The translations under genes were made by a program, and so were the position numbers. DNA of 64,000 nucleotides from Bacillus sp. FJAT-42376 (GTDB lineage: Bacteria > Bacillota > Bacilli > Bacillales > Bacillaceae), in NCBI RefSeq assembly GCF_003816055.1, contig NZ_CP033906.1, positions 1,488,001-1,552,000 on the forward strand, given 5' to 3'. Below the pieces are notes generated by a model, which saw only the letters and a program-made list of their open reading frames with translations, had not been told where the DNA came from and searched no databases. Below, piece by piece: positions 52,592 to 53,991 of the stretch. Position 1 is the stretch's first letter. The number at the start of each line of letters is the position of its first letter.

Positions 52592-52675
52592 ATGGGAGGA
52601 TATAATTCCGGCTTTGCGTTAATTGTTGTTCTATTTATTTTGCTGATTATTGTGGGTGCAGCATACATCTGCTAG
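52592..52675 (+). CDS. YjcZ-family sporulation microprotein, copy 1
   Basis: A 27-residue peptide starts 'MGGYNSGFALIVVLFILL' and ends 'GAAYIC', the pattern of the YjcZ family (Gly/Tyr-rich start and one membrane helix). AAAGGAGG stands nine to ten bases upstream of the ATG. In B. subtilis the YjcZ-type gene yhzE lies at this position. The 350 bases between it and prsA show no other gene. Confidence 0.85.
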   Translation: MGGYNSGFALIVVLFILLIIVGAAYIC

Positions 52676-52778: not shown

Positions 52779-52862
52779 ATGGGCGGTTCTTACGGCGGAG
52801 GTTTCGCGTTAATCGTTGTACTTTTCATTTTGTTGATCATCGTTGGTGCAGCTTGGCTATAA
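52779..52862 (+). CDS. YjcZ-family sporulation microprotein, copy 2
   Basis: A 27-residue paralog starts 'MGGSYGGGFALIVVLFILL' and ends 'GAAWL'. AAGGAGGTG is an almost perfect ribosome-binding site. The hydrophobic core is the same as in copy 1, and synonymous positions differ, so the duplication is not recent. A repeat cluster begins exactly at its stop codon. Confidence 0.87.
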   Translation: MGGSYGGGFALIVVLFILLIIVGAAWL

Positions 52863-53172
52863 GAAAAGCGTAGGCGGCTTGACCAGCCCCGACAAGCATA
52901 AGACGATCAGCCGGAGGAAGGTGAACTTTCCTTCCGCAGGATGAGCGGCTTATGACCTCGAGGGGCTAGCCGCCGGAGCTGGACATCAAGAAAAGCGTAG
53001 GGCGCTTGCTTAGCCCTGAAAGACGGTGGAGCTTCTGACCGAGGGGCGTTTTGTGCCCCGACCGAAGAAGCGAAGCGGCCGAAGGGCTAGCGCCCGGAGC
53101 TGGACACCAGTGCTGGGTTCAAGGTGTTCAATAGTATAAGGCGGAGCGCTCCTTGTGGGGCGCTTTTCTAAT

Positions 53173-53235
53173 GAAGTTCTGCTAAAGGCGCGGCGTCCTG
53201 CCGCAACGCAGAACTGACCCGCTTCCTGCGGGCCT
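53173..53235. repeat. 63-bp nested hairpin module C, copy 1
   Basis: GAAGTTCTGCTAA to TGCGGGCCT; arms GTTCTGC/GCAGAAC enclose GCGGC/GCCGC. It stands where the 5' arm of hairpin A2 should be. Confidence 0.8.
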
Positions 53236-53406
53236 CCGACAAGCATAAGACGATCAGCCGGAGGAAGGTGAATTTTCCTTCCGCAGGATGAGCGGCTTAT
53301 GACCTCGAGGGGCTAGCCGCCGGAGCTGGACACCAAGAAAAGTGTAAGGCGTTTGCTCAGCCCTGAAAGACGGTGGAGCTTCTGACCGAGGGCCGTATAA
53401 GTTAAG

Positions 53407-53469
53407 GAAGTTCTGCTAAGTTCGCGGCATCCTGCCGCAACGCAGAACTGACCTGCCTCCTGCAGGCCT
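53407..53469. repeat. 63-bp nested hairpin module C, copy 2
   Basis: A second copy of the same length, differing from copy 1 at about eight positions, lies inside hairpin B2 at the place of the small GGGGC/GCCCC apical stem of B1. Confidence 0.8.
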
Positions 53470-53678
53470 GAAGAAGCGAAGCGGCCGAAGGGCTAGCGCC
53501 TGGAACTGGACACTGGTACAGGGTTCGAGGTGTTCCGATATAAATGGCAGAGCGCTCCTCGTGGGGGGCGCTTTTTCCATTGGGGATGGGAGTTTTGGGG
53601 CACAGGATACTGATCAAGAGTGCTTTTTTTGGATGAAGAGGCTGTGATGCTGTGCGTCAGAACGGAAGCCGGTCTTGG

Positions 53679-53929
53679 CACTGACCCCCGGCACACCACC
53701 GCAGCGGGGGAATGAGCAGCGATCATGGAGCAGCTTCTGGGACAAGGGGTCATGAAGAGCGGGGACGGAGGTTTAGTGCTTTAGCGAAGTGGGGGTCAGT
53801 GCAATGCACTGACCCCCGGCACACCACCGCAGCGGGGGAATGAGCAGCGATCATGGAGTAGCTTCTGGGACAAGGGTTCATGAGGAGCAGGGACGGAGGT
53901 TTAGTGCTTTAGCGAAGCGGGGGTCAGTG
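53679..53929. repeat. Tandem pair of 123-bp elements with CACTGACCCCC terminal inverted repeats
   Basis: Two copies (53679-53801 and 53807-53929) are nearly identical. Each begins CACTGACCCCCG and ends CGGGGGTCAGTG (one mismatch in the first copy), and contains AATGAGCAGCGATCATGGAG and TTTAGTGCTTTAGCGAAG. The five bases CAATG separate them. No coding potential. They resemble in design the GGGGACAGGCA elements at 1139-1390. Confidence 0.85.
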
Positions 53930-53991
53930 TAAACTTCGAAATACCCCACAGCAAACTCCGAAATCCCCCCCTGCAAACCCAATTCCCATAC

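Follow-up and report, generated by a model that had tools for sequence, protein, structure and literature searches.

The BOX elements of Streptococcus are modular small interspersed repeats of the form boxA-boxB(n)-boxC, with MITE features, TIR and target duplications, that are found clustered and inserted into one another (PMC3049150). In the Bacillus cereus group, the elements bcr1–bcr18 are intergenic, mostly chromosomal repeats of 100–400 bp, of which bcr1–bcr3 are termed MITE-like and of which copies occur in transcripts of two strains (84/165 and 62/155); the first bcr element is described as restricted to this group (PMC6542083, PMC3446304). The bcr elements are described with TTTAT repeats, a motif to which their mobility is linked (PMC6542083). 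GTAG-REPs are palindromes of 20–40 bp with a GTAG foot, and the RAYT genes are often flanked by such repeats; the phyla named for them in the accessible text do not include Firmicutes (PMC3733652). Bacillaceae-1 (RF01690), which Rfam types as an sRNA gene, is listed for Bacillaceae in a 2010 paper (PMC2864571).

The window analysed here, that is, the whole stretch of 64,000 nucleotides comprising positions 1488001–1552000 of the 4.25-Mb genome of Bacillus sp. FJAT-42376 (label G000), contains a cluster that shares features with each of these systems. The cluster runs from the TAA at 52860–52862 to about 53580 and comprises four copies of a repeat and two Bacillaceae-1 RNAs, as follows:

52592..52675, + strand: first of two ORFs for 27-aa proteins of the YjcZ_2 family (PF09680, E 5.7e-14)
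52779..52862, + strand: second 27-aa YjcZ_2-family ORF (PF09680, E 1.7e-13)
52861..52987, + strand: copy A1, constant frame with A-type interior (model R1 52863–52987, E 1.8e-35; stems read directly)
52988..53108, + strand: copy B1, the frame of A1 with other stem letters and a B-type interior (R1 52990–53108, E 4.3e-17)
53141..53170, + strand: terminator-like hairpin with T run, 3' of copy B1 (fold of 52860–53170)
53166..53232, + strand: Bacillaceae-1 RNA copy 1, occupying the 5'-arm place of copy A2 (RF01690, 74.3 bits against a gathering score of 35)
53236..53334, + strand: copy A2, only A-type interior and 3' arm, first part of direct repeat D1 (R1 53208–53334, 5' arm broken)
53335..53514, + strand: copy B2, frame whose interior encloses Bacillaceae-1 (R1 53337–53514, E 1.1e-11)
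53400..53466, + strand: Bacillaceae-1 RNA copy 2, within B2 (RF01690, 78.5 bits against a gathering score of 35)
53548..53580, + strand: terminator-like hairpin with T run, end of cluster (fold of 53160–53580)

The cluster begins on a stop codon, as the earlier note had reported, with the TAA of the second YjcZ_2 ORF merging directly with the GAAAAGCG of the repeat. The 5' flank reads AAGAAAAGCGTA at 52861 and 52988 and AAGAAAAGTGTA at 53335, and is followed by a 7-bp basal stem (GGCGGCT/AGCCGCC, GGGCGCT/AGCGCCC and AGGCGTT/AGCGCCT), a 5-base bulge (TGACC) and a second stem (AGCCCC/GGGGCT or AGCCCT/AGGGCT), all of which lie where they had been claimed to lie, with the stem letters correct. The third copy, A2, has no proper 5' arm but a Bacillaceae-1 RNA in its place, and the two units of D1 (52889–53049 and 53236–53396) are 96% identical. 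Folding of 52860–53170 and of 53160–53580 gave z scores of −4.74 and −3.73, respectively, versus dinucleotide shuffles, with 0/100 shuffles reaching the observed fold in either case. The covariance model R1 places four copies on the + strand of the window, with E values from 1.8e-35 to 1.1e-11, the best of which belongs to A1, itself one of the 33 rows of the model, as well as two weak matches on the − strand that echo the near-palindrome. In this region, Rfam also matched Thr_leader (26.4 bits) and ceN109 (18.8 bits); both hits fell far under their gathering scores and were discarded.

The frame was derived by reading 12 stretches around genomic copies of Bacillaceae-1, most of which share it. 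It consists of GAAAAGCGnA, the 7-bp stem, the 5-nt bulge and a second stem of about 6 bp, and closes with CTAG, the stem and GGAGCTrGACA, giving a repeat that is typically about 122 nt long. The frame is modular, enclosing exchangeable interiors of type A (GACAAGCATAAG...CTTATGACC), type B (GGTGGAGCT...GAAGCGGCCGA) and other types, at least two in all, as well as nested Bacillaceae-1. R1 was built from 33 A-type copies, 32 from other genomes and one being A1 of the window, which were chosen from 128 candidate frames by A-type motifs, length and redundancy over 93%. The earlier note had proposed a genome search with the flank. The exact 12-nt 5' flank occurs three times and a reversed control pattern twice, so that the flank letters alone prove little and the structure carries the proof. 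The structure model finds 31 matches at 16 places in this genome, the window cluster being one of these places.

Beyond this genome, R1 matched 39 of 80 genomes of the family and about three quarters of those sampled in this well-studied order (221/299 genomes, 86/117 genera), copy counts per genome being lower bounds because 44 candidates per genome were scored in the family and 11 in the order. Many genomes hold dozens of copies. Presence within the family is uneven, with one genus positive in only 3 of 44 genomes, at one copy each, and the remaining 36 genomes (five genera) carrying at least nine matches each. Genus-to-family assignments, and Bacillales as the name of the order, are our assumption. 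A scan of named genomes for the exact 3' pattern gave at least 120 loci, which share this one pattern and are not a random sample; among the 80 titles of matches listed, one names Chryseobacterium and the other 79 belong to what we take to be Bacillaceae and allied genera. Rfam recognised only the Bacillaceae-1 module of the repeat in the window stretch and ten further loci. In the CC-licensed papers searched, neither a description of the repeat nor a match to its sequence words was found. Many intergenic regions would be annotated differently if the element were recognised as a whole.

The repeat constitutes a structured, covarying nucleic acid family in which compensatory stem changes exceed chance. 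In the 33-copy alignment, 26 of 39 pairs have changed on both sides, bearing out the double changes that the earlier note had seen among the window copies; 94.0% of cells are paired versus 78.2% after shuffling, double-change cells number 205 versus 61.8, and the covariation score is 0.428 versus 0.144, falling to at most 0.102 when the partner is slid. The 33-copy structure was taken from the very alignment scored, and so the copies outside the fetch pattern, which comprise 39 of 153 unique elements, were tested separately. Perfect 7-bp basal stems are present in 26 of these 39, compared with 6.6 on average and never more than 14 when the arms were re-paired (1000 shuffles), and five or fewer of the seven basal pairs form in 16 of the 153 unique elements, 10 of them among the 39. 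Twenty-eight different basal arm pairs occur among the 137 copies with at least six pairs, and second stems can be swapped outright, as with GGGG/CCCC for CCCC/GGGG at one locus (L084) and GGGA/TCCC at another (L087). Chance hairpins are rejected on the shuffle folds, the covariation and the re-pairing test. The cells that depart from Watson-Crick pairing comprise 53 G-T, 8 A-C and 69 others on the given strand, with 19 of the 53 G-T cells falling in one column pair. This excess of G-T over A-C, together with the covariation, points to one folding strand, be it RNA or single-stranded DNA (ssDNA), and supports the selection on a folded single strand that had been suggested from the window copies. 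The structural claim of the earlier note was right and understated.

Bacillaceae-1 behaves as a module of this frame. Of its 26 copies in this genome, 23 directly follow a 5' frame-arm motif (GGCGCTT, GCGCCTT, GAGAGGCG and similar, a list drawn up post hoc with the copies already seen), compared with 2.7% at random window positions. An AAAAGCG-like 5' flank precedes 13 of the 26 (8.75% at random), the 3' end of the frame lies downstream of 16 (1.2% at random), and at least one frame motif is near 24. Of the two matches without a frame motif, L002 has, by eye, an A-type interior behind it (L036), and L026 lies under the family cut-off. Within the frame, Bacillaceae-1 sits at two places, after the basal 5' arm and within the B interior. 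The window cluster holds two full-length matches to it, and it forms one interior module of the repeat. Other species likewise carry Bacillaceae-1 within frames (for example L055 and L136). The frame itself lies outside RF01690, to which only the module belongs. The sRNA type given by Rfam differs from what is observed here, where 23 of the 26 copies follow a repeat arm, and a stand-alone sRNA reading is rejected for this genome. Bacillaceae-1 should not be read as an sRNA by default.

Among the systems described above, BOX resembles the repeat in being small, interspersed and modular, with copies clustered and inserted into one another. The repeat appears to work like BOX, as a stem frame with a variable interior. 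BOX differs in its TIR and target duplications, no duplication having been found here, and in belonging to other genera; moreover, the stems of the present repeat covary through many sequences and one of its modules is an Rfam RNA (for BOX, PMC3049150). With bcr elements the repeat shares its intergenic, mostly chromosomal location, whereas its spread over 86 of 117 genera differs from the restriction of the first bcr element to one group (PMC6542083, PMC3446304). Identity with bcr1 is not supported, no TTTAT target duplication having been seen. Like GTAG-REPs, the repeat is palindromic, of high copy number and clustered, has alternative complementary stem letters, and is often 3' of coding regions (PMC3733652), but it is longer, at about 122 nt, has a foot that is mostly GnAA or GnAG, and has no linked RAYT. 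The earlier suggestion, namely a mobile element resembling bcr1 or REP or else a structured RNA, was right in kind, with neither named family shown to fit, and the family assignment was half right.

We consider it probable that the element is a non-autonomous, modular interspersed repeat of BOX/REP-like character, one strand of which must fold. Such a repeat would spread by copying into intergenic DNA, after which unequal recombination would build arrays and swap modules; its stems would stay paired because whatever copies or recognises the repeat works on a single folded strand, ssDNA or RNA, with a defined polarity. This reading rests on the covariation, the polarity, the wide and patchy spread and the nesting set out above, and movement is supported by several comparisons of sites. 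Of eight 23S-5S spacers in one genome (G065), only one contains the repeat, located 5 nt beyond where 23S conservation ends, and the other seven operons are without it; the spacer next to the copy has itself diverged from the empty spacers. Comparison of loci and congeners yielded arrays and shared copies and did not yield a letter-perfect empty site at a protein gene, the comparison of congeners covering two sites, with four of the six loci parsed at one of them; the rRNA operons of G065 are the best substitute for a clean empty site. In three species, the same two genes, presumably ATP-synthase genes, have the repeat between them, sense in two and antisense in one. One intergenic spacer, which we take to be pgk-tpiA, carries the repeat in four genomes (G000, G001, G002, G005; degenerate in the last two) and lacks it in G003 and G004. 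Behind one gene, tandem arrays vary between congeners in copy number and stem letters, and copy 1 of this array in G000 has arms of two different types.

Several findings speak against this reading, among them the 16 of 153 unique elements with five or fewer basal pairs and the Y1_Tnp and RAYT counts given below. A copy common to G079 and G090 has flanking sequence that matches between the two genomes over 900 bases at 99%, and a 901-base query had no match in 40 of 44 genomes of the genus, so this copy need not have moved alone; no empty relatives of the G079 site were found, the short matches in G065 and G080 not spanning it. At the sensitivity of the searches made, the repeat is rare on mobile DNA: a 250-base query with the window's own copies matched 1 of 72,556 plasmid records and 0 of 50,697 phage records, and the exact pattern was present in one viral contig. 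Neither the 52 short copies nor the 34 long ones showed a target duplication of 2–9 nt that clearly exceeded the level in shuffled pairs.

Copies lie in both orientations relative to the neighbouring genes. Among 99 clusters from the named loci (five without an upstream gene; genes called crudely as longest ORFs of at least 90 codons), strands were mixed within a cluster in 0/99, and between co-directional genes 25 clusters were sense and 40 antisense. Of the sense clusters with a neighbour on each side, 27 of 39 begin no more than 8 nt from the stop codon, compared with 2.8 expected and a maximum of 12 in 200,000 simulations when copies are spaced evenly across the gap, a simple null that takes no account of terminators or promoters. 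Antisense copies abut the opposing stop in only 1 of 54 cases (4.7 expected). With a home-made detector, a terminator was found within 110 nt 3' of 13 of 28 flush copies and 0/28 in one shuffle, and of copies antisense to the downstream gene, 32 of 56 are separated from the stop of that gene by its terminator, a count made without a shuffle control. Behind genes, sense copies thus tend to lie before the terminator and antisense copies after it, a pattern that could reflect selection, target choice or the short space between stop and terminator.

One extension of the mobile-repeat reading, which we regard as possible yet doubtful, is that the repeat recognises, or is recognised at, gene 3' ends. 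Its sense strand would insert or be retained directly after stop codons, and once after the 3' end of a 23S rRNA, as folded RNA or ssDNA, so that many relatives of Bacillus would carry a mobile, self-folding 3' UTR and the Bacillaceae-1 'sRNAs' would be pieces of it instead of independent genes. The same placement data bear on a rival, namely that the repeat is a functional RNA structure whose sense copies act in the 3' UTR or between cistrons after the stop, for example by blocking 3' exonucleases or serving as a processing site, with the other copies being neutral. The crowding of sense copies at stop codons, the scarcity of antisense copies at opposing stops, the terminator counts, the G065 copy just past the 23S rRNA gene and the polarity of the G-T wobbles all agree with such a function. 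We nevertheless judge it unlikely: antisense clusters are at least as common as sense clusters between co-directional genes, the sites inspected follow different genes, a short stop-to-terminator interval alone could push sense copies towards the stop, and one large genus is almost wholly without the repeat. Sense copies may have a role at the transcript level. As a large natural set of covarying hairpins near gene ends, the family lets mobility that depends on a single strand, or effects in 3' UTRs, be tested.

It is improbable that these are classical REP elements mobilised by the RAYT transposases of the genome. Four Y1_Tnp genes are present in G000, two of them RAYT-like, of which L162 scores above the cut-off of 80 for NCBIfam REP_Tyr_transpos (85.6 bits) and L161 below it (69.4 bits), and RAYT and repeat co-occur among the 299 genomes (both 146, repeat only 75, RAYT only 24, neither 54), with an odds ratio of 4.4 that ignores ancestry. 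However, repeats other than the frame repeat flank both RAYT-like genes here, and a RAYT hit at E 1e-15 is lacking from 41 of the 146 high-copy genomes. Identity with GTAG-REP is rejected, since GTAG stands at the stem foot in only 3 of 137 unique copies and the 3' end motif of the frame is found at 0 of 16 Y1_Tnp loci (15 distinct genes, 3.2–3.5 kb each).

Long copies (18 by strict definition) terminate in TATrCTTTCTTA, which is close to an inverted form of the 5' end, their tail ending in CTTTCTTA as an imperfect inverse; in short copies, conservation drops to background past GACA, which the detector requires. If the repeat were a MITE belonging to an ordinary DDE insertion sequence, TAAGAAAAGCG...CTTTCTTA would be its short terminal inverted repeats, and these ends would be accounted for, as would the TAA that precedes GAAAAGCG at 34 of 94 cluster starts (8/28, 4/12 and 22/54). 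This reading is very improbable given the absence of target duplications in short and long copies alike, the strong stem covariation, which is not expected of such elements, and the distribution of the tail, which is common where a copy faces an opposing gene (28 of 56), is rare where co-directional genes flank a sense copy (2 of 25), and may not be the end of the element.

Several other repeats were met during this work. Two units of a different repeat (GGTCAGTGCA...TGCACTGACCCCC...GGGGACGGAGGTTTAGTGCTTTAGCG) lie immediately 3' of the window cluster, at 53669–53935; a very similar repeat flanks the RAYT-like gene L162 of the same genome, and the repeat looks like that enzyme's own. Ahead of the second RAYT-like gene is an array of about 1.1 kb of CCCGGACATTGTTCCCGGACATCAC units (L161:240–1360; G000, about 3,760,500–3,761,600), and related units adjoin a frame repeat at about 391,200 of G000 (L185). 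A further repeat (GTGAGACTCCTGCGGGAGCAGCGGGACAGGTGAGACCCCGCAG...) is present at L038:500–700, and at L059, L073 and L116 the frame repeat lies within what appears to be a repeat of this type, with a possible GGACAG duplication in L116. Six loci of genus g4 (L203, L204, L208, L212, L217 and L220) share a short, conserved motif of hairpin-like form around GATTwGTCGCGACATC that has no relation to the frame repeat. In another genus, L201 and L202 hold, at the same stop codon, a sequence (TAAGAAAAGCGGAATCGACC...GGTCGATGTAGCTAGACA) that appears to be related to the frame repeat but diverged; we take this spacer, like the g4 spacers, to be the one behind pgk. Finally, a stretch of 114–117 bases at 736142–736258 of G000 and five other places is 99% identical at the six sites.
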